Assembly (NCBI RefSeq): GCF_006385175.1
Contig: NZ_VFIY01000015.1
Location: forward strand, 126,501-190,500
Reading direction: 5' to 3'
From: Emcibacter nanhaiensis
GTDB taxonomy: Bacteria > Pseudomonadota > Alphaproteobacteria > Sphingomonadales > Emcibacteraceae
DNA length: 64,000 nucleotides
Each line of letters starts with the position of its first letter. The stretch's first letter is position 1. The position numbers were made by a program, and so were the translations under genes. The notes under the pieces are model-generated. The model saw only the letters and a program-made list of their open reading frames with translations, did not search any database and was not told where the DNA came from. Of this stretch, positions 33,717-47,436 are shown in pieces.

Positions 33717-36422
33717 ATGACCATACGAAATATTGAAAAACTCTTTTCGCCCTCGTCCGTGGCCCTTTACGGCGCCAGCGACCGGAAGGGCTCCATCGGC
33801 CGGACAGTAATGAATAACCTCTATGCCGATTTCAAGGGCACGGTCTGGCTGGTCAATCCCAGCCATTCGGAGATTGCCGGTGTTCCCTGTTACAGGGATA
33901 CCGCGAGCCTGCCCGGCATTCCGGACCTGGCGGTCATTGCCGTGCCGCCGCGATATGTGCCGGACATTATTCGTGATCTCGGGGAAAAGGGGACCCGGGC
34001 GGCGGTGGTGATTACCGCCGGGTTCCGCCAGGAGGGGTTGACCGATGAGCTGGTGGAGGCGGCGAAACGCCATGACCTGAGAATCATCGGCCCCAACTGT
34101 TTCGGGCTCTTGGTGCCCGGTACCGGTCTCAATGCCAGCTTTGCCCATGGCATGCCGCTGAATGGTGAACTCGCCCTGTTGTCCCAGTCCGGTGCCATCA
34201 TCAGTGCCATTCTCGACTGGTCGCGGGATGCCGGCAAGGGCTTCTCCGCCATGGTATCGATGGGCGACATGGTCGATGTGGACCTGGGCGACATGCTGGA
34301 TTATCTGGCGGCGGATACCCATACCCGGGCCATCCTGATGTATCTGGAGCAGGTGACCGATGCCCGCAAGTTCATGTCCGCGGCCCGGTCGGCCGCACGG
34401 GTCAAGCCGGTGATTGTGATCAAGTCCGGTCGCCACGCGGAGGCCGCCAAGGCGGCCCATTCCCATACCGGCGCGCTGGCCGGATCCGATGCGGTCTATA
34501 ATGCCGCCTTTCGACGGGCGGGAATCCTGCGGGTGACCGACCTGGAGGATCTGTTCGATGCCGCAGAAATCCTCAGCCACCTGAAAGCGGTACACGGTGA
34601 CCGGCTGGCCATCATCACCAACGGCGGCGGCGCCGGGGTGCTGGCGGTGGACCGTCTGATTGATTTTGGCGGCACCCTGGCCGACCTGTCGGAAGAAACC
34701 CTTGCCCGGCTCGACCAGGCCCTGCCGGACAACTGGTCCAAGGGCAACCCGGTTGACATTATCGGCGACGCCGGCCCCGAACGCTATGAGCAGGCCATGG
34801 AAATTGTGCTCGAGGATCCCTGTGTCGATGCGGTGATGGTGATCAACTGTCCGACGGCGCTGGCGTCCAGTACCGAAGCCGCGAAAGCCACCCTCAGGAG
34901 TATCGACCGCAACAATCGCAAATTCATCCATCCCAAAGCGGTGCTGACCGCCTGGCTGGGCGACGGCGCTGCCCAGGAGTCCCGGGCCCTTTTTGCGGCG
35001 GAAGGTTATCCCACCTTCCATACCCCGGAGGATGCAGTGCGCGGGTTCAGCTACCTGACCCGCCATGCCAGGGACCAGCGGGCGCTGATGCAGACGCCGC
35101 CGAGCCTGCCGGAAGGATTTCACACGGATGCTGCCGAGGCGCGCAAAGTCATTGCCGCGGCAACCGGTTCCGGCCGGACCCTGCTGACGGAACCGGAGGC
35201 CAAGGCGGTGCTCAAGGCGTATGGCATTCCCACGGTGGAAACTGTCATTGCCGCACATCCGCAAGAGGTTGAAAAAGCGGCACAGCAGTTCCTGGCCCGG
35301 GGCTGCAAAGACGTGGCGGTCAAGATATTGTCGGTTGATATATCCCACAAATCGGACATGGGCGGCGTCAAACTCGGGCTGTCTGACGCGGCGACGGCAC
35401 GGCAGGCGGCGGAAGAGATGCTGGCGGCCATTGGCGCGGCGCTGCCGGAGGCCAACATCGAGGGCTTTACGGTGCAACCCATGATCCGGCGGCCTGGCGC
35501 CCATGAGCTGATCATCGGGGTCAGTGAAGATGCCACGTTCGGGCCGATCATCATGTTCGGGGCCGGGGGTACGGCGGTGGAGGTGATCCGGGATACGGCT
35601 ATGGCGTTGCCGCCGCTGGACCTGAAGCTCGCCCGCGACCTGATGGAAGAGACCCGTGTATTCAAGCTGCTCAAGGGTTATCGGGACCGGCCGGCGGCGC
35701 ATCTGTCCGCCATTGAACTGGCCCTGGTGCGGATATCGCAGATGGTAGCGGAGCTGCCGGAGATCACCGAACTGGATATCAATCCCCTGCTGGCGGATGA
35801 GGCCGGGGTGATCGCCCTCGATGCGCGTATTGTTGCCGGCGGTGGTGAGGCGGCGCCGGAAGGAAAACTCAATCCCCGGCTTGCTATCCGCCCCTATCCC
35901 TCTGAGTGGGAACAAAGGGAAACCTTGCCGGAAGGGCGGAGCATCCTGATTCGGCCGATTCGGCCCGAGGATGAAAAATATTATGATGTCTTCATGGAGA
36001 AAACCGATCCCGAGGATATCCGGCTGCGCCTGTTTGTGCCGTTGCGCAAGCTGCAGCATGAATTTATCGCCCGCCTGACCCAGATCGACTATGCCCGCGC
36101 CATGGCCTTCATTGCCATTGACCCGGATTCCGACGAAATGCTGGGCATATCCCGCCTGGCCGCCGACCCGGACAATGTAAGGGCTGAATATGCCGTTATC
36201 ACCCGCACTGACATGAAAGGGCACGGCCTGGGCTGGGCGCTGATGCAGCGGCTGATTCACTATGCGGAGGCGGAAAAAATCGAGGAGCTTTGGGGACAGG
36301 TGGCCATTGAAAACCACACCATGCTGCAAATGTGCCGGGAACTCGGTTTCGAGATCCATCAGGAGCCGACCGATGCCAGCCTGAAGCTTGTCACCCTGTC
36401 TCTGCCGGTCAAGAAGCCCTAG
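33717..36422 (+). CDS. PatZ-like ADP-forming acyl-CoA synthetase / GNAT acetyltransferase fusion
   Basis: A 901-residue fusion. A CoA-binding domain starts at FSPSSVALYGASDRKGSIG (~9-27). Succinyl-CoA-ligase-like domains follow (~140-460), with the SHTGALAGSD loop. An ATP-grasp domain occupies ~480-710 (VKILSVDISHKSDMGGVKLG), and a C-terminal GNAT domain ~745-890 (RPIRPEDEKYYDVFM, then TDMKGHGLGWALMQRL for acetyl-CoA). This order is that of E. coli PatZ/Pka protein lysine acetyltransferase. It could regulate acyl-CoA synthetases such as Fcs. The start at ATG 33717 follows AAGGCGG. Confidence 0.88.
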   Translation: MTIRNIEKLFSPSSVALYGASDRKGSIGRTVMNNLYADFKGTVWLVNPSHSEIAGVPCYRDTASLPGIPDLAVIAVPPRYVPDIIRDLGEKGTRAAVVITAGFRQEGLTDELVEAAKRHDLRIIGPNCFGLLVPGTGLNASFAHGMPLNGELALLSQSGAIISAILDWSRDAGKGFSAMVSMGDMVDVDLGDMLDYLAADTHTRAILMYLEQVTDARKFMSAARSAARVKPVIVIKSGRHAEAAKAAHSHTGALAGSDAVYNAAFRRAGILRVTDLEDLFDAAEILSHLKAVHGDRLAIITNGGGAGVLAVDRLIDFGGTLADLSEETLARLDQALPDNWSKGNPVDIIGDAGPERYEQAMEIVLEDPCVDAVMVINCPTALASSTEAAKATLRSIDRNNRKFIHPKAVLTAWLGDGAAQESRALFAAEGYPTFHTPEDAVRGFSYLTRHARDQRALMQTPPSLPEGFHTDAAEARKVIAAATGSGRTLLTEPEAKAVLKAYGIPTVETVIAAHPQEVEKAAQQFLARGCKDVAVKILSVDISHKSDMGGVKLGLSDAATARQAAEEMLAAIGAALPEANIEGFTVQPMIRRPGAHELIIGVSEDATFGPIIMFGAGGTAVEVIRDTAMALPPLDLKLARDLMEETRVFKLLKGYRDRPAAHLSAIELALVRISQMVAELPEITELDINPLLADEAGVIALDARIVAGGGEAAPEGKLNPRLAIRPYPSEWEQRETLPEGRSILIRPIRPEDEKYYDVFMEKTDPEDIRLRLFVPLRKLQHEFIARLTQIDYARAMAFIAIDPDSDEMLGISRLAADPDNVRAEYAVITRTDMKGHGLGWALMQRLIHYAEAEKIEELWGQVAIENHTMLQMCRELGFEIHQEPTDASLKLVTLSLPVKKP

Positions 36423-36895
36423 TCTTCTTCCCGCAGTTCTCCGACTTCGAGGATGGGGGAGGCGTCAAGTTCTTCGGCGTCCATCATGGCGGCGACCCGC
36501 TGCAGGGAGCTGACCAGCATCTGGCGTTCCCAGTTTTCCAGCTTGCGGTACTGGCGCAAAAAACCGGACTGCAGAAGCTCCGGCGCTTCTTCCAGTCGCC
36601 TGAGTCCTTCCTCGGTCAGGCAGGCATGGACAATGCGCCGGTCTTCGTCGCTGCGGGTGCGCCGGGCCAGGCCCGCTTTTTCCAGCCGGTCCAGGATCGA
36701 GGTAATGGTAGCCTGGCTCAGGGCGACCTGGCGGGCGATGGCGCTGGGCGGCATTTTGCCCTCCTTGCGCAGGGCCTGCATCACGACAAGCTGCGGTGCA
36801 GTCAGACCCGAGGTTTTGACCAGCTGTTTGGATTGCAGGTCAATGGCCCGGATGATGCGCCGGATGGATATCAGGATGTCGTCGTAATCGGTCAT
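36419..36895 (-). CDS. MarR-family transcriptional regulator
   Basis: A 158-residue winged-helix protein: PSAIARQVALSQATITSILDRLEKAGLARR is the HTH and SDEDRRIVHACLTEEG the wing. I chose the ATG at 36895 (MTDYDDILIS). Its stop overlaps the convergent PatZ-like gene by 4 bases. Targets are unknown; the M20 hydrolase gene 65 bases upstream on the same strand might be co-transcribed with it. Confidence 0.87.
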   Translation of the reverse strand: MTDYDDILISIRRIIRAIDLQSKQLVKTSGLTAPQLVVMQALRKEGKMPPSAIARQVALSQATITSILDRLEKAGLARRTRSDEDRRIVHACLTEEGLRRLEEAPELLQSGFLRQYRKLENWERQMLVSSLQRVAAMMDAEELDASPILEVGELREED

Positions 36896-36960
36896 TGGTC
36901 GCTTGTTGTCTACAAATTGAGGCGACAAATCTAGCGATAAAAGCAGTGACAGGCAATCTT

Positions 36961-38193
36961 CTAGTCTGTAGCCAAGACCACAATACTATCGAGAAGAAGG
37001 TTGGCGCCGCGTTCCACATCATCCCAGTGGGTCCATTCATCAGGGGCATGGCTGACGCCATTGACGCTGGGCACGAAAATCATGCCGGTGTCGGTAATTT
37101 CGGCCAAAAACTGGGCATCGTGACCGGCCCCGGACGGCATCAGCATGTGACTGTAGCCACGACCTTCCGCCCGCTGCTTGATGATGTCGACGACCTTGCT
37201 GTTGCAGTAGCTGGGCTCGAGCCAGCTCATTTGTTCGTATTCAAACATCAGGCCGTGCTTGCGGGCGATTGAAGACAGGACCCGGCGACAGGCCTGGGCC
37301 AGTGCTTTCATGACGCCAGGATCAAGGTCGCGCCCGACGATGGTGAAATCCACCTCCCCCGGGACAGTATGGGGAAAGCCCGGCTTCAGTTCGACAAACC
37401 CGATGGTGATTCTTGACTTTTCTGTGCCTTCCTCGTCAATGATGCGCTGGATCTCGTGGGTGAAATCGGCCAGCCCGAGGAAGGCGTCGCTGCGCATGTC
37501 CATGGGGGCGGTGCCGGCATGGTCCGCCTTGCCGATCAGCCGCACCATCCATTTGAAGACGCCGGAAATCCCCTCGACAATGCCGATCGAGGTGCGTTTG
37601 CTTTCCAGCACCGGGCCCTGCTCCACATGCAGTTCGAGAAAGGCCCGGAGCTCGTCCGGCGAACGACGGGCATGCATGACCTCATGATAGTCAAAGCCGT
37701 GACGGGCCATGGCGTCCTTGAGCAGTTCGCCACTGGAGTCCTGTGCGCGTTCCAGCCAGTCAAGAGTAACCTTGCCCGAGATGGCCTGGGCACCCAACAT
37801 GCCGCCGAACCGGCCCTCTTCCTCGCTGGTGGCGACGATCTCGATGGGATAGTCGAGATGGATGTCGTTTTCCCTGATGGTGCGAATACATTCCAGGCCC
37901 GCCACCACGCCGAGGGCGCCGTCAAAAATGCCGCCGGCGGGCACGGAATCCAGGTGGGAGCCGATCATGACACAGGGCTTGTTGTCCGGTCCCATCCGCC
38001 CGAACACATTGCCGGCACCGTCCATATGGGTTTTCATGTCCATGGATGTGAAGGTTTCCATCAGCCAGCGCCGCGCTTCCATGTCAGCGTCGCTGAAGCC
38101 CTGGCGGTAGACGCCGCGGTCCTGTTCGTTGAATCCGAATCTGGACAGGGCAAGCAGGTCCTTTTCGATACGTTCAACGGAGACATTCGGCAT
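36961..38193 (-). CDS. M20-family amidase (N-carbamoyl-L-amino-acid hydrolase / allantoate amidohydrolase type)
   Basis: Dinuclear-metal hydrolase of 410 residues. Metal ligands are visible: His80 in MIGSHLDSVPAGG, Asp91 in FDGALG, the Glu pair in TSEEEGRFGG, His in LELHVEQGPVLE and the C-terminal His in MPSGAGHDAQF. A dimerisation lid domain lies between ~210 and 325. The HVEQGPVLE and GIFDGALGVVAGLE motifs place it with carbamoylases/ureidohydrolases rather than peptidases. It is divergent from a symporter-carbamoyltransferase operon, hinting at N-carbamoyl or ureido substrates. The exact substrate is not known. Confidence 0.87.
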   Translation of the reverse strand: MPNVSVERIEKDLLALSRFGFNEQDRGVYRQGFSDADMEARRWLMETFTSMDMKTHMDGAGNVFGRMGPDNKPCVMIGSHLDSVPAGGIFDGALGVVAGLECIRTIRENDIHLDYPIEIVATSEEEGRFGGMLGAQAISGKVTLDWLERAQDSSGELLKDAMARHGFDYHEVMHARRSPDELRAFLELHVEQGPVLESKRTSIGIVEGISGVFKWMVRLIGKADHAGTAPMDMRSDAFLGLADFTHEIQRIIDEEGTEKSRITIGFVELKPGFPHTVPGEVDFTIVGRDLDPGVMKALAQACRRVLSSIARKHGLMFEYEQMSWLEPSYCNSKVVDIIKQRAEGRGYSHMLMPSGAGHDAQFLAEITDTGMIFVPSVNGVSHAPDEWTHWDDVERGANLLLDSIVVLATD

Positions 38194-38246
38194 TTTTATA
38201 ACGTCCTGTGGTATTTTGCGGAAAATTACACATTGAATTATGGCAC

Positions 38247-38290
38247 AGGATATTTCAGAACAAAATATTTGAATTCAAATAATATATCCT
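38247..38290. promoter_or_regulatory. Nested palindromes between the M20 hydrolase and the symporter operon
   Basis: An outer repeat, AGGATAT (38247) and ATATCCT (38284), encloses a perfect 16-bp palindrome, TATTTGAATTCAAATA, at 38266-38281. It lies in the 199-base gap between divergent genes, positioned to control both. The binding protein is unknown. Confidence 0.45.
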
Positions 38291-38392
38291 TATGATGTGG
38301 TCATGAAATCGGGCCTCCGGTCCGCCGAGATGCAGAGATTGCCGCAAAAATCAGGAGAAATTGGTCGTTAGCGACGGCGCATCTAATCTTTT

Positions 38393-38833
38393 ATGATTCT
38401 TCGTGTTATAACTATAGCAGTTGTTTATCTGGCATCGGTTTCCACACTTTCTGCCGGATCCCTCCACATTGCAGATGATGGACTTACCGCAGGCTATGTC
38501 ACTCTGGCCTGGCCGGAGGCAAAGGGTTCTTCCTTTCAACTCGAATTAAAATCTGAACACGGCTGGCGCACTCTCTATCAGGGGGGTGACCGGGCGACGA
38601 CATTGACCGGGCTTTCCGATGGCAGCTACCAGGTGCGTCTGCTGTCTGCAAATTCCCCGGCCGTAGCGGAAGATGTGCTGACTTTTGAGGTTCGTCACCA
38701 CCCGCTCGGTCAGGCAATGGCTTTCTTCGGGGCCGGGGCCGTCATTTTTATCATCCTGCTGGTGCTGCTGCTGCGCGGCAGCCGTAATACGGATCATATT
38801 TCTTCAGTTACAAGCGGGCGGAGCCATATCTGA
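38393..38833 (+). CDS. Small exported FN3-like domain protein with C-terminal membrane anchor
   Basis: A 146-residue protein. The signal peptide covers ~1-21 (VVYLASVSTLSAG). A ~75-residue beta-sandwich region resembles fibronectin type III (GYVTLAWPEAKGSSFQLEL, then TLTGLSDGSYQVRLLS). One C-terminal helix follows (AMAFFGAGAVIFIILLVLLL, ~107-128) with a short cytoplasmic tail. The fold assignment is from the pattern of strands, not from a close relative. It is the first gene of the operon and its stop overlaps the symporter start by one base, so it may be an extracytoplasmic accessory of that transporter. Confidence 0.75.
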   Translation: MILRVITIAVVYLASVSTLSAGSLHIADDGLTAGYVTLAWPEAKGSSFQLELKSEHGWRTLYQGGDRATTLTGLSDGSYQVRLLSANSPAVAEDVLTFEVRHHPLGQAMAFFGAGAVIFIILLVLLLRGSRNTDHISSVTSGRSHI

Positions 38834-40278
38834 TGATGAATGCCGATGCTGTCATGCCGGCGTCCATCGCCTGGCTTATAATTGGTGGTTTCTCCCTGTT
38901 GTGGGTGTGGCTCGGTTGGTGGCTGGGACGGAAAAATGACAGCCTGGAAGATTATATGCTGGCCGGGCGCAAGGTCGGCATGGGCTTTGCGGTGGCGACA
39001 GCCATGGCGACTTGGGTGACCAGCAACACCACCATGACCGCCCCGCAGCTGGCCTATCAGCTGGGGATCTGGGGCATGGCCGGCTATTCGCTGGGGGCGG
39101 TGGGCCTGTTGTTGTTTGCGCCGCTGGCCCGGCGCATTCGGGAAATGATGCCCCAGGGCTATACCAGCGGTGATTTTATCCGTCTGCGCTATGGCAATAT
39201 GGCCTGGCGGGTGTTTCTGCTCATTTCCCTGTTCTACAGTCTCGGTTGGCTGATCAGCCTCGGTATGGCCGGCGGGTTACTGATTAATGCCCTGAGCGGC
39301 ATTCCCTATTTTTACGGTATGACGGTGATTGTGGCGATCTGCACTCTCTATACCGTGTTTGGCGGTCTCAGGGCGGTGATCGGTACCGACTTCGTGCAGA
39401 CGTTGCTGATCCTCGTGGGCATTGTCCTGCTGGGTATCCTGGTGATTCATGAAGTGGGTTTTGAAGTCATTCACAGCCGTTTGCAGGAGGAACGGCCGGA
39501 GCTCCTCAACCTGCTGCTGCCGGCGTCGATCATGTTCCTGTTCAACAATCTGTTCTTCGGGGTCGGGGAGATTTTCCATTCCAATGTCTGGTGGTCGCGG
39601 GCCTTTGCGTTTGCCCCCGGCGTCGGCTTTCGGGCCTACCTGCTGGCCGGGTTTTTCTGGTTGCCGATACCGATTGTCGCAGGCTTCATCGCTCTGGCGG
39701 CACCGGCACTCGGCATCAATGTGCCGTCGCCTGATATGGTGGCGCCGCTGGTGGCCGGAAAAATGTTCGGCCTGATGGGGGCGATCCTGGTGTTTGTGGT
39801 GGTTTTTGCCGCCCTGGCCTCCAGCCTGGACAGCGTGCTGGCCGCCACCAGTGACCTGATTGTCAAAGATATTTACAAGGGCCATTTCCGCCGGGCGGCC
39901 ACGGATGCCGAACTGCGCAAGGCGGCGGTCTGGATTATCCTCGGGCTTGGCCTGTTTACCTGGGCGCTGAGCCTGCCGCGACTGGCGACGCTGGGCTCCC
40001 TGCTGCATTTTACCGGCGCCTTTGTCGCCAGCACCATCTGGCCGATCACTATCGGTCTGCTGTATCGCAAGGGCAGCGGACTTCTGGCTACCCTGGCCAT
40101 GGTACTTGGTACTGCCAGCGGGCTCTACGCGTATTTTGCCATTGGTTTCTATGTGGCGGCGCTTGTTTCCGCTGCCGTATCCATGATCGTCATGCTGTTT
40201 GCCTTTACCGGCCGGCGGGCCTTTGACTGGGCCCTCCTGAGGGAGAACGGCGATATTAAAAATGGAGAGATAAAATGA
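38833..40278 (+). CDS. Sodium:solute symporter (SSS family)
   Basis: Inner-membrane transporter of 481 residues with about 13 helices. Family segments include LAGRKVGMGFAVATAMATWVTSN, YTSGDFIRLRYG, VFGGLRAVIGTDFVQ and ALASSLDSVLAATSDLIVKDIY, which contains the Na+-site Ser/Thr residues. An ATGA overlap joins it to the 39-residue gene that follows. Substrate is not obvious; relatives carry urea, proline, pantothenate or other small solutes. The neighbouring carbamoylase, carbamoyltransferase and amidotransferase suggest a ureido or amide compound. Confidence 0.87.
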   Translation: MMNADAVMPASIAWLIIGGFSLLWVWLGWWLGRKNDSLEDYMLAGRKVGMGFAVATAMATWVTSNTTMTAPQLAYQLGIWGMAGYSLGAVGLLLFAPLARRIREMMPQGYTSGDFIRLRYGNMAWRVFLLISLFYSLGWLISLGMAGGLLINALSGIPYFYGMTVIVAICTLYTVFGGLRAVIGTDFVQTLLILVGIVLLGILVIHEVGFEVIHSRLQEERPELLNLLLPASIMFLFNNLFFGVGEIFHSNVWWSRAFAFAPGVGFRAYLLAGFFWLPIPIVAGFIALAAPALGINVPSPDMVAPLVAGKMFGLMGAILVFVVVFAALASSLDSVLAATSDLIVKDIYKGHFRRAATDAELRKAAVWIILGLGLFTWALSLPRLATLGSLLHFTGAFVASTIWPITIGLLYRKGSGLLATLAMVLGTASGLYAYFAIGFYVAALVSAAVSMIVMLFAFTGRRAFDWALLRENGDIKNGEIK

Positions 40279-40394
40279 TTTCCGTCATTGGGCTGGAGGC
40301 GCTGGTATTGCCTGCATTGGCACTGACCTGTGTGGCTCCGGTCGTTCTTGTCTATCTGGTTCTACGTGATATACGGGAGAAGTCCTTATGGTAA
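40275..40394 (+). CDS. 39-residue single-helix membrane peptide
   Basis: A tiny gene squeezed between the symporter and the carbamoyltransferase. It overlaps the former by 4 bases (ATGA) and the latter by 7. The predicted peptide has one strongly hydrophobic stretch (GLEALVLPALALTCVAPVVL, then VYLVL) and a charged cytoplasmic end, RDIREKS. GGAGAGA before the ATG is a good RBS. Overlaps on both sides and an RBS at the right distance argue that it is translated. Some symporters have small one- or two-helix partners, so an accessory subunit is plausible. Confidence 0.65.
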   Translation: MISVIGLEALVLPALALTCVAPVVLVYLVLRDIREKSLW

Positions 40395-41479
40395 ATGCAG
40401 AAAAGGCCATCACCGAAGGGGCGGCCGCTTTCGATCGGGAACGCCCGGATATTTATGGCGACGCTCATCCGAGGGATTTGCTCCGGGCCATTACCGAAGA
40501 ACATGAGCATCTTCAGGCCCTGGCCAACCGTCATGTGGCGTCCGCCGCCCAGTTTGACCGCGACCAGTTATTGCAGCTGTTCCGGCTGGCGGCAAAATAT
40601 GAAGCCAACCCGGACCGGTTCCTGACCCCGATCAAGCCGCTGTCCGGCAAGCTGCTGATCAGCGCTTTTTACGAACCGTCGACGCGGACAAGGCTCAGTT
40701 TCGAGAGTGCCTGGCATCGCCTTGGCGGCGATATCATGTCCATCACCGACCGTACCACGACCGGGATCGCCAAGGGGGAAAGCCTGTCCGACGTGGCCGA
40801 GATGTTCAACAACTACGGCGACTGCGTGGTGCTCAGGGACAGCAACGAGGATTCCGTGATGCAGATGATGCGCAGCCTGCGCATCCCGATCATCAATGCC
40901 GGTAACGGCACCGACGAGCATCCGACCCAGGCCATGTCCGATCTGTACACCATCCTGAAATGGCGCCCCGCCCTGCTGGAGGAGAAGCCGGAAGACCGGA
41001 TCAAAATCGGCATCATCGGCGTGCCCCGGCGCATGCGCACGGTGCGCAGCCTGCTGAAACTGCTGTCCCGCTTCCCCGGCATGATCGACGAGGTGGTGGT
41101 GATCCATGACGGGCAGGACAAGGAACTTTACAGCCCGCAGCAGCGGGAAAGGTTGATGAAGGATGGTCTCAAGCTGCGCGAAAGCACCGACCTGGCGGCG
41201 GAACTGCCCGAGCTGGATGTGGTCTATATCAACGCCATTGCCTGGGTGAAGGATGACTTCGAGGTCATGGGCAATAACCTGAAGCTGAACAGCAAGTCCC
41301 CGCTCAAACCGTCCGCGATCATCCTGCATCCGCTGGCGCGGGGCGACGAGCTCTGCACTTCGCTCGATGATACGCCCCATAACTGGTACTTCGCCCAGGC
41401 CCGGGGCGCCGTTTTCATGCGCATGGCGTTGCTGACCTGCATGGTGCAGCGGACCGAAATGGTGATGGATGTGCTCTGA
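40388..41479 (+). CDS. Aspartate/ornithine carbamoyltransferase-family enzyme
   Basis: A 363-residue transcarbamylase. The carbamoyl-phosphate loop STRTRLSFE starts at residue 98. HPTQAMSDLYTI and the C-terminal HPLARGDELC correspond to conserved ATCase motifs. It has a ~55-residue N-terminal extension beyond pyrimidine ATCase and is not next to any pyr gene. SPLKPSAIILHP takes the place of the usual substrate loop, so the amino-group acceptor is not predictable. It is followed 62 bases later by an asparagine synthetase, an unusual pairing. Confidence 0.85.
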   Translation: MVNAEKAITEGAAAFDRERPDIYGDAHPRDLLRAITEEHEHLQALANRHVASAAQFDRDQLLQLFRLAAKYEANPDRFLTPIKPLSGKLLISAFYEPSTRTRLSFESAWHRLGGDIMSITDRTTTGIAKGESLSDVAEMFNNYGDCVVLRDSNEDSVMQMMRSLRIPIINAGNGTDEHPTQAMSDLYTILKWRPALLEEKPEDRIKIGIIGVPRRMRTVRSLLKLLSRFPGMIDEVVVIHDGQDKELYSPQQRERLMKDGLKLRESTDLAAELPELDVVYINAIAWVKDDFEVMGNNLKLNSKSPLKPSAIILHPLARGDELCTSLDDTPHNWYFAQARGAVFMRMALLTCMVQRTEMVMDVL

Positions 41480-41541
41480 TCACGTTCCAGCACCCAAACA
41501 GATATCTGATTTAACCTGAAACCGAGAGAGCAGAATTTATC

Positions 41542-43554
41542 ATGTGCGGCATCGCCGGAGTATTTTATCTCGACAAGCAACGTCCCGTTGACCCCCAGAT
41601 TCTGGCCAATATGGCGGCTATCCAGTACCATCGCGGCCCGGACGGCTTCGGGGTGGAAGTTATGGACGGCCGGGGCGCGGGCTTTTCCCATGCCCGTCTC
41701 AGCATCATCGACCTGAATGAAAACCGGGCGCGCCAGCCCTTTCGCAACGCGGACGACACATTGCTGCTGGCCCATAACGGTGAATTTTACGACTACCAGC
41801 GCATCCGTACCGATCTGACCAGCCGCGGAGCGCGGTTCGCCACCAAGAGCGACAGCGAAATCATCCTGCATCTTTATCCGCGTTTCGGGCTGGAGGAAAC
41901 CTTGCGGCGGCTGCGCGGCGAATTCGCCTTCGCCCTGTATGATGTCCGGGAAGACGCCCTGCATCTGGTGCGGGACCGGTTCGGCATCAAGCCGCTTTAC
42001 TACCATGCCAGCGATGACGGGGTTGTGTTCGGCTCGGAGGTCAAGGTGGTGATGGCCCATCCCGAGGTGTCGCGCAGTTTCAATAACGAAGGCGTTCTGC
42101 ACCAATTGATGCAGGTGATGGTGCCGGGGACGACGGCCTATGACGGCATTCACCAGGTCAAGCCCGGCCATGTGGTTACCTTCCGGCGGCAGGGCAGCAG
42201 CTGTGTCGTGGAGGATCGCCCCTATTGGGACTTCGAATTTCCGGAAGCCGGTTATCATGCCGGTGACAAGAGTGAGGAACAAAGCATCGAGACCGTCCGC
42301 GAGGGCCTGACCGAAGCAGTGCGCCTGCGTCTCGAGGCGGACGTGCCGGTGGGCTGTTACCTGTCCGGCGGGGTGGACAGCTGTTCCATTATTGGCCTGT
42401 CTGCCGCCATGCGCCAGGATCCGGTCAAGGCCTTCACCATCGGCTTTACCGATACGGATTATGACGAGACGCCGATCGCCCGGGAAATGGCCCGGGCCAC
42501 CGGCGCCGACCAGGACATCCTGCGGCTCGACGGCAGCCATCTTTACGGTCATTTTGAAAAGACCATCTGGCATACGGAACGGACCATTTACAACACGCTG
42601 GCGGTGGCCAAGTATCTGATGAGCCGGCATGTGCGCGATGTGGGCTACAAGGTGGTGGTGACCGGCGAGGGCTCCGACGAACTGTTTGCCGGTTATCCCT
42701 CCTTCCGCCAGGACCTGTTTATGCACGGCCTTGATGACCTTAATGAGTCAGAACGGAAAAAATGGGAAGCCATGCTCGGCGAGAGCAACGCCCTGTTCAA
42801 GGGCGCCATGCTGGCCGCCGAGGAGCACAATGATCTTTACCTGACTGATCGGGTCGGGTTTACACCGGCCTGCCTGCAGCCGTGGCTCAGTTGTGAGGAG
42901 ACCGCCCGGACCGTGCTCAACGCCGACCGGCGCGAGAACCTGGCCGGCTATAAACCGGGCCAGGCCATTGCCGAACGGCTGGACCGCAACATGCTGGACG
43001 GCCGCCATCCGCTGGACCGGGCGCAATATGTCTGGTCCAAAACCATGCTGGAAGGCCAGATCCTGACCTGGGGCGGCGACCGCGTCGACATGGCCAACAG
43101 CATGGAAGCGCGTCCGGCCTTCCTGGATCATCACCTGGCCGAATCGGCTACCCGGATTCCACCGCTGCACCGGATCAAAGGCCGGCGCGAGAAATACGTC
43201 CTTAAAGAAGCCATGAAGGGCCTGCTGCCCAAGACTCTCTATGAGCGGGAAAAGTTCGCTTTCATGGCGCCGCCCGCCACCGTCAACAAGGATAAATGGT
43301 CGGCCATGATGGAGCTCGCCGCCGACTTCCTGAGCGAGAAGGCGGTGCTGGAGGCCGGTGTGCTGGACCCGTCCGGGGTGCAGCGCCTGATCACCGAAGC
43401 CCAGGAAGACACGACGCCGCGGGCCCGCCTGGTGCAGCTGGACGCCATGATCAACCATATGCTGGGGGTGCAGATCCTGCACCGGAATATGATTGCCGCC
43501 GATATCCCCGCCCTGGCCGCTAAACGGGCGCAGGACCTGGGCTGGGTGGTGTGA
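41542..43554 (+). CDS. Glutamine-hydrolysing asparagine synthetase-like amidotransferase
   Basis: A 670-residue AsnB-type enzyme. The N-terminal class II glutaminase has the nucleophile Cys2 (MCGIAGVFYL), the QYHRGPDG segment and NGEFYDY. The synthetase domain has the PP-loop SGGVDS at 275-280 and the GEGSDELFAGYPSF segment. It is longer than housekeeping AsnB (~550), with an extended C-terminal region. Position after a carbamoyltransferase suggests amidation of a specialised carboxylate rather than, or as well as, aspartate. Confidence 0.87.
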   Translation: MCGIAGVFYLDKQRPVDPQILANMAAIQYHRGPDGFGVEVMDGRGAGFSHARLSIIDLNENRARQPFRNADDTLLLAHNGEFYDYQRIRTDLTSRGARFATKSDSEIILHLYPRFGLEETLRRLRGEFAFALYDVREDALHLVRDRFGIKPLYYHASDDGVVFGSEVKVVMAHPEVSRSFNNEGVLHQLMQVMVPGTTAYDGIHQVKPGHVVTFRRQGSSCVVEDRPYWDFEFPEAGYHAGDKSEEQSIETVREGLTEAVRLRLEADVPVGCYLSGGVDSCSIIGLSAAMRQDPVKAFTIGFTDTDYDETPIAREMARATGADQDILRLDGSHLYGHFEKTIWHTERTIYNTLAVAKYLMSRHVRDVGYKVVVTGEGSDELFAGYPSFRQDLFMHGLDDLNESERKKWEAMLGESNALFKGAMLAAEEHNDLYLTDRVGFTPACLQPWLSCEETARTVLNADRRENLAGYKPGQAIAERLDRNMLDGRHPLDRAQYVWSKTMLEGQILTWGGDRVDMANSMEARPAFLDHHLAESATRIPPLHRIKGRREKYVLKEAMKGLLPKTLYEREKFAFMAPPATVNKDKWSAMMELAADFLSEKAVLEAGVLDPSGVQRLITEAQEDTTPRARLVQLDAMINHMLGVQILHRNMIAADIPALAAKRAQDLGWVV

Positions 43555-43687
43555 CCTGCTGAGGACGCCGGGTTGTTGCGCCGGTGAGGACCAGCTTCCG
43601 AACTATGCGCATGGACAACCACAGGGATGATCTGTTAAATTAATCCTGTTTTGTTTGTCATGTACATTGGCTCAGGGGGTGCGGCAT

Positions 43688-44071
43688 ATGGCGACTACCA
43701 GATTCAATCAAGAAATGATGCAGGAACTCGAGCAGCTCCTGGCGGAGCTCTATGGCATTTTGTCGGAGAACAGGCCCCAGCTTGAACAGGCGTCTGTCAG
43801 GTCGGAACTTGTCAGGCTGCTGTCCTGGGCGGAAAGCGCCTATGCCGGCAGTGCCAGCGCCGAACGGCTGCTGGAGGGCAAGGGGCCGGAACTGGTGGAG
43901 CATATGAAGAACTGGGTCGAACTGGCCGGCAGGGAATATATGGATCTGGAAGACGAAAGCCCGACAACCGCGCCTGCCGGTGAACCGGAACCGCAAAAAC
44001 TGTATGAGACCGCAGGCAAGCTTGAAGACGTCATGAAGACACTCTCCCACCTCAAACAAAAAGCTGAATAG
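43688..44071 (+). CDS. Hypothetical acidic helical protein
   Basis: A 127-residue protein that I do not recognise. It is predicted mostly helical, with heptad-like segments at both ends (MMQELEQLLAELYGILSE; AGKLEDVMKTLSHLKQK) and a Pro/Glu-rich linker in the middle. There is no signal peptide or membrane helix. I chose ATG 43688 because AGGGGG lies 8 bases upstream. The next gene follows 28 bases later, so the two probably form an operon with the ZIP transporter. Confidence 0.65.
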   Translation: MATTRFNQEMMQELEQLLAELYGILSENRPQLEQASVRSELVRLLSWAESAYAGSASAERLLEGKGPELVEHMKNWVELAGREYMDLEDESPTTAPAGEPEPQKLYETAGKLEDVMKTLSHLKQKAE

Positions 44072-44099
44072 TAATCTCTTCACCGGAAAGGATCGCAAA

Positions 44100-44669
44100 A
44101 TGACCGGGTCTGAACAACAAGGTAAAACCATCCTCGAAGCCGTCGGCGTTTTTAATGATGTCAGGAGCCTGCAGGCCGCCATAGACGATCTGCAGGAGCA
44201 TGGGTTCATGCAGCAGGAGCTGAGTGTTCTGGCGGGGGACAAGGCCATCGAGGAAAAGCTGGGGCATATTTACCAGCGGGTGGAGGAAGCCGAAGATGAC
44301 CCGGAAGCGCCGCGGAAGGTATTTGTGCCTCTGGAAAATATTGGCGATGCCGAGGGCGCGCTGCTGGGCACGCCGCTCTATATTGCGGCAACCTCGGCAA
44401 CGGCGATCACCGTGGCGTCCGGTGGAACCATCCTGGCGGCGATCTTTGCCGCGGCGGCAGCGGGCGCAGTCGGGGCGGCCATCGGCTCGATACTGGCCGG
44501 GCTGGTGGCAAAAAATTATGCCGACGAGATCCAGGAGCATCTCGATCATGGCGGTTTTTTGTTGTGGGTGAACCTGAGGACGCCGGAACTGGCGGAAAAA
44601 GCCCGGGAAATTATGGGGCGGCATTCCGCCCATGACGTACATATGCACAAGATCCCCCTCGCCGGATAA
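44100..44669 (+). CDS. Glycine-zipper membrane protein of unknown function
   Basis: A 189-residue protein. The N-terminal ~65 residues resemble stress-protein alpha/beta domains that sense or bind small ligands (GVFNDVRSLQAAIDDLQEHGF, followed by LSVLAG). A long Gly/Ala-rich hydrophobic hairpin follows (~95-140, AAIFAAAAAGAVGAAIGSI) and a soluble C-terminal end. This resembles DUF1269/general-stress-like membrane proteins. GGAAAGGA precedes the ATG. The stop shares a base with the ZIP transporter start, indicating coupling. Confidence 0.7.
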   Translation: MTGSEQQGKTILEAVGVFNDVRSLQAAIDDLQEHGFMQQELSVLAGDKAIEEKLGHIYQRVEEAEDDPEAPRKVFVPLENIGDAEGALLGTPLYIAATSATAITVASGGTILAAIFAAAAAGAVGAAIGSILAGLVAKNYADEIQEHLDHGGFLLWVNLRTPELAEKAREIMGRHSAHDVHMHKIPLAG

Positions 44670-45400
44670 TGAACGTTTCTTTCTGGCACCCTTTTATCGC
44701 TGCCATGCTGGCGGCCGGTGTGACGACGACCGGTTTGCTGGTTATCCGGCGTTTTGAGGACTGGGCCAACCGCAACAGCATCTATTTCTCCTCCTTTGCT
44801 GCCGGCGTACTGATTTCGGTGTCCTTTCTGCATCTGATTCCGCGGGCAGTCAGCATGACCGAAATGGCGCCAGTCTATCTGCTGGCGGGTTTCCTGTTCC
44901 TGCATCTCTGCAACCGCTTTATTACCGCCTATGTCTGCGACCGGCCGGAGCGGGCCCGCTACGGCATTGGCCTGATCCCGATGCTGGGGATCGGCCTGCA
45001 TTCCTTTATTGACGGGATGGTCTACAGCGTGACCTTCACAGTCAGTGTCTTCACCGGAACACTGGCCGCCATCGGCATGATCCTGCATGAATTTCCGGAG
45101 GGGATTGTCACTTATGTATTGCTGCGCAAGAGTGAGTTTGAGCCCCGGCGTGCGTTCGCCTGGGCTTTTGTTGCCGCGGCCATTACGACACCGTTGGGGA
45201 TGCTGGCGTCCTATCCCTTTATCAGCCGCATTGATGATGTCCTGCTGGGGAATTGCCTGGCATTATCCGCCGGGGCGCTGATTTATGTGGGCGCAAGCCA
45301 TTTGTTGCCGCGGGTGGAGGCCCAGCCCGGTCGGTACAGCTTTATCACAATGGCGGCCGGCATACTGGTGGCGATTGTCATAGTATTGAGCGCAGGATAA
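44669..45400 (+). CDS. ZIP-family divalent metal transporter
   Basis: A 243-residue inner-membrane protein with about 8 helices. The metal-site signatures are GIGLHSFIDGMVYSV (helix 4) and MILHEFPEGIVTYVLL (helix 5), with a His after helix 2 (SFLHLIPRA). It imports Zn2+, Fe2+ or Mn2+ in known relatives. It is coupled to the glycine-zipper gene by a one-base overlap. Confidence 0.88.
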   Translation: MNVSFWHPFIAAMLAAGVTTTGLLVIRRFEDWANRNSIYFSSFAAGVLISVSFLHLIPRAVSMTEMAPVYLLAGFLFLHLCNRFITAYVCDRPERARYGIGLIPMLGIGLHSFIDGMVYSVTFTVSVFTGTLAAIGMILHEFPEGIVTYVLLRKSEFEPRRAFAWAFVAAAITTPLGMLASYPFISRIDDVLLGNCLALSAGALIYVGASHLLPRVEAQPGRYSFITMAAGILVAIVIVLSAG

Positions 45401-45561: not shown

Positions 45562-47436
45562 GTGCTTAGTAAAATCGTGAAGAGCGCACGCAACGCCGTG
45601 CGTGACGAGCAGGCAGGGGATACGCTGAAAGCGTTATCAAAATCACAGGCCATCATCGAATTTGAACCGGACGGGACTATCCTGGACGCCAACGAACTGT
45701 TCCTGAACTCGGCGGGGTACAGTCTTTCCGAAATCACCGGGCAGCACCACAGCATGTTTGTACAACCAGCTTACCGGGACAGCGTAGACTACAAGCAGTT
45801 CTGGCAGGAACTGCGTCAGGGAGAACATCAGTCCGCTATCTTCAGGCGTGTCGGCAAGCATGGAAAAGAGCTTTGGCTGCGGGCAACCTATGTGCCGGTA
45901 GAGAATTCCGCCGGACGGGTGACCAAAGTGGTAAAATATGCCACGGATATTACCGAACTGCAGAACGGCAATATCGATGCGGCCGGCAAGCTCAAGGCGC
46001 TTGACCGGGCCCAGGCCATTATCGAGTTTGAACTGGACGGTACGATTATTACTGCCAACGAGAATTTCCTGAATACTATTGGCTACAGCCTGGAGGAAAT
46101 CCGCGGTAAAAAGCACAGCATGTTTGTTGACGAAAAGGAACAAAACAGCACTGACTATCAGCAGCTTTGGAATGACCTCAGGGCCGGCCAATATAAGAAT
46201 GCTGAATACAAGCGGGTCGGCAACGGGGGCCGGGAAATCTGGCTGCAGGCCACCTATAATCCCATAATGGATGACGACGGCGTTCCTGTCCGGGTGGTGA
46301 AATTTGCCAATGACATTACAGAACAAAAAATGCGCAATGCCGATTACGCGGGCAAGATCGACGCCCTCAACAAGGCGCAGGCTGTCATTGAATTTGAGCT
46401 GGATGGCACTATTCTGACGGCCAACGAGAATTTCCTGAAGGCCGCTGGGTATCGCTTGGACGAAATCCAGGGCAAGCATCACAGCATGTTTGTAGACGAA
46501 GAATTCAAAACCAGTGCGGATTACAGGAAATTCTGGGAAAACCTTGGCAACGGGATATTTCAGGCCGATGAATATAAACGTATCGGCAAAGGTAATCGGG
46601 ACATCTGGCTGCAGGCGACCTATAATCCAGTTCTTGATCCCGAGGGTCGTCCTTTCAAGGTTGTCAAATTTGCCTCGGATGTGACCGAGATGGTCAAAGC
46701 CCGGCAGGAGCGGGAGCGGGTCGGCGCTATCGTTGATGAAAATCTGGACAAGATCCTGAAAACGGTCAGCGAGGCCAATGCCAAGGCCGGGTCGGCGGCC
46801 AGTGCCTCCACCCAGACGGACCAAATGCTCCAGGTGGTTGCCGCGGCGGCCGAGGAGTTGAATGCCTCAATTCACGAAATTACCGACAGCGTGGCCCATG
46901 CCCGCAAGGCGGCGGACCAGACTTTTACCGAAACAGAGTCCATCAACAGTTCCACCATGGAACTGAGCGATGCGGCCGAAGCCATGAATCGGATCGTGGT
47001 GCTGATCGAGGATATTGCCTCCCAGATCAACCTGCTGGCACTCAATGCGACCATTGAGTCCGCCCGGGCGGGCGAGGCCGGCAAGGGCTTCGCCGTGGTG
47101 GCCGGTGAAGTGAAAAACCTGGCCAATCAGGTGACGGATGCCATCGGGCAGATTTCCGGAGAAATCAACCGAATGCAGAATGTGTCCGGTGAAGTGGTCA
47201 ACCGGCTGGGTTCCATCAGTTCGGCAATCGGCGAACTGCAGGGCAATGTGAACGGCATTGCCGACGCTATTGAGGAACAGGGTGCGGCAACCCGGGATAT
47301 TTCCTCCAACATGCAGACGGCGGCGACGGCGGTTGCCGATGTGAACAAGAACCTGACGGACCTGTCCGGCGATATCGATGTGTCCAACCGTTATGCCCAG
47401 GAAGGCATCGATCTCTATCGCAGCCTGCAGGCCTGA
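45562..47436 (+). CDS. Soluble methyl-accepting chemotaxis protein with three tandem PAS domains
   Basis: A 624-residue chemoreceptor. Three near-repeat PAS domains of ~122 residues (about 23-140, 145-262, 267-384) each carry an HSMFV segment and a WLxATY segment. The MCP signalling domain follows (~400-624), with the hairpin tip [28 protein letters not shown] split across its centre. No transmembrane helix is visible, so it is likely cytoplasmic, perhaps an Aer-like redox or ligand sensor. The start is a GTG with GGGAG upstream. It is monocistronic, followed by a terminator. No other chemotaxis genes are in the window. Confidence 0.9.

Follow-up and report, generated by a model that had tools for sequence, protein, structure and literature searches.

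A conserved carbamoyltransferase-amidotransferase gene pair is a candidate pathway for the osmolyte carbamoylglutamine amide

In the N-acetylglutaminylglutamine amide (NAGGN) system, Ngg makes an N-blocked glutamine dipeptide that AsnO then amidates, and a peptidase and the divergent MarR-family protein PA3458 complete the set, as described in PMC8070244. Two other MarR-family proteins, EctR1 and CosR, are described as repressing genes for ectoine and betaine (PMC7876524). Carbamoylglutamine amide (CGA) was described in 1991 from the purple sulfur bacterium Ectothiorhodospira marismortui (as cited in PMC1224877, PMC3857566 and PMC7824335); it is known from one organism according to PMC3857566, and is among the solutes found in purple sulfur bacteria according to a 2020 review (PMC7824335). 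The passages on CGA in these three sources assign no genes to it, and we found no paper assigning CGA biosynthesis genes in the open-access literature. Here we analyze a 64,000-nucleotide stretch of the Emcibacter nanhaiensis genome (the window; contig NZ_VFIY01000015.1, positions 126,501 to 190,500), in which a six-gene cluster at positions 36961-43554 includes an ATCase-like (aspartate carbamoyltransferase-like) carbamoyltransferase (CT) followed by an AsnB-like amidotransferase (ASN). We propose, with a probability of roughly two in three, that these genes make, take up and break down CGA as an osmolyte, CT and ASN being responsible for synthesis, a Na+/solute symporter of the SSS family for uptake and an M20 hydrolase for breakdown.

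The source genome is 3.96 Mb in size and 98.7% complete, and the window lies on its contig C15. All six open reading frames (ORFs) were verified in the positions and families given by an earlier note on this DNA, which had read them as a carbamoyl/amide cluster: the M20 hydrolase on the minus strand, then an FN3-like membrane protein, the SSS symporter, a 39-residue peptide, CT and ASN on the plus strand (Table 1). The plus-strand genes are closely packed, with overlaps of 1 base (FN3/SSS), 4 bases (SSS/peptide) and 7 bases (peptide/CT) and a gap of 62 bases between CT and ASN. The M20 and FN3 genes are separated by 199 bases. A MarR gene, absent from the list in that note, follows the M20 gene on the same strand at a distance of 32 bases.

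Scanned against named genomes, a four-sequence alignment of CT matched 427 stretches, of which 238 were relatives; all counts over 80 loci given here refer to the best 80 of these 238, and 11 of the 80 CT stretches are under 20 kb. ASN follows CT on the same strand in 80/80 loci, with a gap of 12-391 bases (median 25), and this adjacency is therefore not due to chance. The earlier note had suggested a neighborhood search for this pairing beyond the strain, and a second sample bears it out: among 370 gammaproteobacterial genomes, 21 carry CT (at least 61% identity) and 21 carry ASN (E ≤ 1e-130), and the two sets are identical. L018 of the named-genome scan and G028/L009 are one and the same genome. 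The symporter was found in 79/80 loci, the FN3 protein in 49/80 (by tblastn), a homologue of the 39-residue peptide in 48/80, M20 in 43/80 and MarR in 33/80. For the small proteins, these tblastn counts are probably too low. In the Idiomarina group the MarR gene lies several kb from the cluster and may be unrelated to it.

The pair spans alphaproteobacteria, gammaproteobacteria and Synechococcus, with hosts in Kordiimonas, Kangiella, Pleionea, Idiomarina, Pseudidiomarina, Pseudoalteromonas, Alteromonas, Nitrosomonas halophila and Synechococcus, genera that we take to be largely marine or saline. Counting the window's own genome, CT was found in 4/32 genomes of the family and in 2/397 of a phylum sample (E ≤ 1e-50), which indicates a patchy distribution. 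In Synechococcus (L087, L088, L091, L093, L094), CT and ASN are 62-64% identical to those of the window, the symporter is a different one (44-48%) and M20 is distant (35-41%), which suggests a transfer in which accessory genes were replaced. Shewanella sp. OPT22 (L092) has the CT-ASN pair with no symporter, FN3 protein or M20 detected on 21 kb, which suggests that the synthetic pair can occur by itself. A plasmid search returned 16 records for CT, all below 60% identity and PyrB where annotated, and none for ASN at E ≤ 1e-150.

Several CT-like proteins were set aside. At E ≤ 1e-45 a CT match is present in 27/370 gammaproteobacteria, six of which have weaker matches only (37-42% identity); these, and one further weak match in G673, which also has a strong one, have no ASN on the surrounding stretches and are excluded from the CT counts. 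Among these weak matches, L121 and L122 have the RVQRER motif and resemble ordinary ATCases, and L117-L120 and L123 form a separate group. A tree places all CT rows together with L117-L120 and L123 in one group (100/100) and carries a long-branch warning, so we do not lean on it. A related carbamoyltransferase-like group (L131:8215-9363, L132, L133, L134, L137) lacks the HPLxR motif and has no ASN nearby; L131, L133 and L134 have no common neighbor among the few neighbors scanned.

The best NCBIfam match of CT is aspartate carbamoyltransferase, and its predicted model (pLDDT 82) retrieves ATCases from the PDB with Foldseek (1ml4, E = 4.6e-23). CT nevertheless scores 193 bits on TIGR00670, under the cut-off of 236.95, and in all 21 CT genomes searched (21/21; a 22nd, L047, is outside this count) a separate protein lies above this PyrB cut-off with CT below it. 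We rejected assignment to canonical ornithine carbamoyltransferase or putrescine carbamoyltransferase, on whose models CT scores at most 104 bits, far under the cut-offs. Across 96 CT sequences (E. coli PyrB numbering), the superfamily residues S52-T53-R54-T55-R56, K84, R105, H134 and Q137 are invariant (96/96), as are Glu50 and Arg167. The aspartate site of ATCase is not retained: Arg229 is replaced by A, S or T in 96/96, Gln231 is replaced in 96/96 (A or S in 94, V and T in the other two) and Pro268 is Ala in 96/96. Arg229 and Gln231 presumably hold the aspartate side-chain carboxylate in ATCase, and their loss in every sequence makes it unlikely that CT is an ATCase. In ATCase, Glu50 sets the position of Arg167, a residue in contact with the bisubstrate analogue (as described in PMC6056424). 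CT would thus still bind an alpha-carboxylate and no longer an acidic side chain; the conserved Arg167 fits a free alpha-carboxylate in the first step, which suggests that carbamoylation precedes amidation. We infer that CT is a glutamine N-alpha-carbamoyltransferase.

ASN belongs to the AsnB superfamily, scoring 428 bits on TIGR01536 (cut-off 267) and carrying both the SGGxDS loop and an N-terminal Cys2 that is invariant in 14/14 aligned sequences; this model is broad and would leave the substrate unfixed. On the AsnO model TIGR03104 it reaches 309 bits, under the cut-off of 570.1, and no Ngg model matched any of the ten proteins at 36422-45397, the part of the genome searched for Ngg. On this score, and with no Ngg found next to the cluster, we rejected NAGGN itself as the product. 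The GNAT/ATP-grasp protein at 33681-36422 matches acyl-CoA ligase models and no NAGGN model. ASN is predicted to amidate the alpha-carboxyl group of carbamoylglutamine. M20 is a hydantoinase/carbamoylase-type amidase, scoring 352 bits on TIGR01879 (cut-off 204) and 520 bits on NF006771 (cut-off 399). The earlier note had called it divergent; with both cut-offs passed it is not especially so. Its putative role would be to take the carbamoyl group off carbamoylglutamine.

A link to CGA itself comes from phototrophs. E. marismortui resolves to E. mobilis in the NCBI taxonomy. Photosynthetic reaction centers are found in two of the 27 gammaproteobacterial CT genomes (G539 and G743), which belong to one genus, and all ten genomes of that genus (10/10, two of them examined for reaction-center genes) carry CT (E ≤ 2e-100; split in G820), ASN, M20 and an isochorismatase-family protein. 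The betABI genes are lacking in E. mobilis, E. marismortui, E. magna and Ectothiorhodosinus mongolicus according to PMC7824335. A betA match above the cut-off is missing in 4/10 genomes of the genus (G743, G815, G817, G539). The high-potential iron-sulfur protein of G819 is identical over 71/71 residues to PDB 1hpi, which we take to be that of E. vacuolata. From this identity and the matching betA absence we identify the genus as Ectothiorhodospira.

The strongest alternative retains the two-step chemistry and the osmotic role and changes the amino acid, giving for example the amide of N-carbamoyl-glutamate or of N-carbamoyl-asparagine; CGA itself would then be made elsewhere, or by some lineages only. 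Sequence cannot fix the side chain, loss of Arg229 and Gln231 (given the contacts assumed above) disfavors aspartate and not asparagine, and the second-best NCBIfam model of M20 is the ErtE N-carbamyl-L-glutamate amidohydrolase (370 bits, under the cut-off of 520). Set against these points, the reviews, in their passages on such solutes, name CGA as the carbamoylated, amidated amino-acid osmolyte, and the genus from which it came, as identified here, has the cluster in every genome. We consider another amino acid unlikely.

Regulatory features are consistent with the osmotic part of the CGA reading. The window MarR is 79% and 74% identical to the cluster-adjacent MarR proteins of L016 and L018, and 46% identical over 153 residues to a closely related regulator that stands divergent from ectA-ectB-like genes in a genome of the same family (L184). 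Between M20 and FN3, TTTGAATTCAAA centers a perfect 16-base palindrome (8/8 pairs), a level reached in 0/200 shuffles, and is the only TTTG-N4-CAAA in the window. This pattern occurs within 200 bases upstream of FN3 in 14/61 loci, the window counted (0.63 expected), and upstream of 8/565 control ORFs. The 14 loci are drawn from a few groups (the window, L016, L018, Kangiella, Pleionea, Aliikangiella and two gammaproteobacterial metagenome-assembled genomes) and so are not independent. The ectoine promoter of L184 has no close match to the predicted operator. In G539 an MscS-type channel gene begins 9 bases after the ASN stop; L128 is the only locus in which an MscS-like protein was seen to adjoin ASN. 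Of 26 CT genomes, 24 lack ectoine synthase, that of the window among them.

These features also bear on a nitrogen store or scavenging route, in which ureido-amides would be made or imported mainly as a nitrogen source. Hydrolase genes do adjoin the synthetic ones, the product would hold four nitrogens, and the isochorismatase-family protein has the biuret and ureidoacrylate hydrolase models as its best NCBIfam matches, both under cut-off. The EctR-like regulator with its predicted operator, the MscS neighbor in one genome, the lack of ectoine synthase in most CT genomes and the largely marine hosts, as we take them to be, argue against a primarily nutritional role, which we regard as improbable.

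We think it very unlikely that CT and ASN are housekeeping enzymes, namely a second ATCase and the cell's own asparagine synthetase that are adjacent by chance. Both proteins do lie within those superfamilies, ASN clears the generic cut-off and in some genomes it has no AsnB-like companion; against this stand the sub-threshold score of CT beside a canonical PyrB in 21/21 genomes, the lost aspartate-site residues and the pairing kept across three lineages. The earlier note named a housekeeping role of the two synthetic enzymes as grounds for dropping its reading; that role is disfavored here, with ASN as the weak point. Least probable of all is a role in secondary metabolism or peptide tailoring, with a larger molecule as the substrate for carbamoylation by CT and amidation by ASN: AsnB-like enzymes act in lasso-peptide and XrtA systems, whose models were matched below cut-off, but outside the syntenic Idiomarina group the only neighbor families common to many loci are CT, ASN, SSS, FN3, M20 and MarR, and a dedicated Na+ symporter is nearly always present.

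In the CGA pathway that we propose, CT would convert carbamoyl phosphate and L-glutamine to N-alpha-carbamoyl-glutamine and phosphate, and ASN would use glutamine and ATP to amidate its alpha-carboxyl group, yielding CGA with both charges of glutamine masked. The symporter is the putative importer, and with the FN3 protein and the 39-residue peptide would recover leaked or external CGA with Na+. For breakdown, the 1-amide would be hydrolyzed first, perhaps by the isochorismatase-like amidase encoded in the operons of some relatives and not in that of the window; M20 would then remove the carbamoyl group to give glutamine, CO2 and NH3. The EctR-like MarR would repress the operon at low salt through TTTGAATTCAAA. 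The outline given in the earlier note (carbamoylation, amidation, import and decarbamoylation of a possible osmolyte) withstood the tests made here. Beyond that outline, the product is likely a known metabolite, CGA, with a regulator that resembles EctR and a design that resembles NAGGN.

Several observations weigh against this pathway. Ser80 of the carbamoyl-phosphate loop, which we take to contact carbamoyl phosphate in ATCase, is Gly in 96/96 CTs, and an amino acid other than glutamine, such as glutamate or asparagine, could be the acceptor. ASN passes a generic AsnB model and is the only AsnB-like match (E ≤ 1e-30) in 7/25 genomes, where it might for that reason also serve asparagine synthesis. 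M20 was not found in 37/80 loci (11 of the 80 stretches being short), the operator is absent from 47/61 loci and ectC occurs alongside CT in 2/26 genomes. No symporter, FN3 protein or peptide was detected at any locus of the Ectothiorhodospira-assigned genus; SSS is absent from the 16-17 kb around CT in L128 and L129 and from the loci of its other eight genomes, which are short. The dedicated importer of the earlier note is thus not universal. The identity of that genus depends on one protein and a gene-absence fingerprint, and at a base rate of 21/370 one genus would match by chance about 6% of the time (about 1 in 17), making the match good but not conclusive. PMC3857566 describes CGA as minor among the solutes of E. 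marismortui, and reports a Raman study in which glycine betaine was seen but CGA gave no signal.

The FN3-like assignment in the earlier note agrees with an AlphaFold model (pLDDT 85) in which seven strands lie between an N-terminal helix and a single long C-terminal one, and for which most of the top Foldseek matches in the PDB are FN3 domains (best E = 8.9e-5); this protein is a probable symporter accessory or stress sensor, and the 39-residue peptide is possibly a small symporter subunit. Neither matches a Pfam model. An isochorismatase-family protein (PF00857) lies between M20 and CT or SSS in the phototroph genus and also in some further hosts, and beside M20 in L019; it is a candidate for hydrolysis of the 1-amide of CGA. 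Downstream of ASN, a run at 43655-45400 encodes a 138-residue protein of no assigned family, a sub-threshold YflT stress-domain protein and a ZIP metal transporter, the last two genes overlapping by 1 base; this is possibly another stress operon. A protein at 45562-47436 carries three PAS domains and, after them, a methyl-accepting chemotaxis signaling domain; it is a possible redox or energy taxis receptor.

Table 1. Features of the carbamoyltransferase-amidotransferase locus in the window, and of the isochorismatase-family protein in related loci.
Feature	Position	Strand	Families and remarks
MarR-family regulator	36419..36928	-	PF01047; TTG ORF, likely ATG start 11 codons in
M20 N-carbamoyl-L-amino-acid hydrolase	36961..38193	-	Peptidase_M20; TIGR01879; motifs GSHLD, EEEGRF, HVEQGP
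TTTGAATTCAAA, predicted MarR operator	38268..38279		Centre of 16-base perfect palindrome, 125 bases before FN3 start
FN3 membrane protein	38393..38833	+	Signal-like N-terminal helix, FN3 domain, C-terminal TM-like helix
SSS-family Na+/solute symporter	38833..40278	+	SSF, PF00474, 98 bits
39-residue hydrophobic peptide	40275..40394	+	Overlaps both neighbors
CT	40388..41479	+	OTCace_N + OTCace (PF02729/PF00185), Pfam gathering scores passed
ASN	41542..43554	+	GATase + Asn_synthase (PF13537 + PF00733); MCGI glutaminase start, SGGVDS loop
Isochorismatase-family protein	L129:9278-10009	-	Also L130, L138-L140, L019
Isochorismatase-family protein	L128:7310-8089	+

The locus offers a testable two-gene answer for a metabolite described in 1991 without genes that we could find in the open-access literature. 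The presence of the CT-ASN pair in many marine bacteria implies that CGA may be far commoner than thought. We lean, with somewhat less assurance than for the pathway in the window, towards a broader reading in which CT would be a new kind of enzyme that forms the CGA pathway together with ASN. CGA would then be widespread in the sea, both as an osmolyte and as a nitrogen-rich molecule of exchange, with Idiomarina, Pseudoalteromonas, Alteromonas, Kangiella, Kordiimonas and marine Synechococcus among those that make and import it. If this is true, marine heterotrophs and picocyanobacteria would commonly contain a solute reported from one purple bacterium, which would bear on how cells adapt to salt and on the organic nitrogen of the sea.

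Compared with known systems, the CT family appears as a set of neofunctionalized carbamoyltransferases: it shares with PyrB the fold and most of the carbamoyl-phosphate site, and differs in the replaced Arg229, Gln231, Pro268 and Ser80, an INAIAW loop and an N-terminal extension. The structure of CGA, glutamine with one N-carbamoylation and one alpha-amidation, corresponds to the two activities predicted here. In the comparison made for the EctR1/CosR type, the window MarR resembles the ectoine-operon MarR of L184, but adjoins the CT-ASN locus and not ect or bet genes. TTTGAATTCAAA resembles the CosR consensus TTTGA-NN-TCTAA as given in PMC8070244. NAGGN (asnO-ngg-peptidase with a MarR) is the closest system described: there too, a single locus holds an N-capping enzyme, a hydrolase, a MarR and an AsnB-superfamily protein that amidates N-blocked glutamine. 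In NAGGN the cap is an acetyl group and a second glutamine added by Ngg and the hydrolase is an aminopeptidase, whereas in the window the cap would be a carbamoyl group added by an ATCase-fold enzyme, the hydrolase is an M20 carbamoylase and the locus has a dedicated SSS importer.

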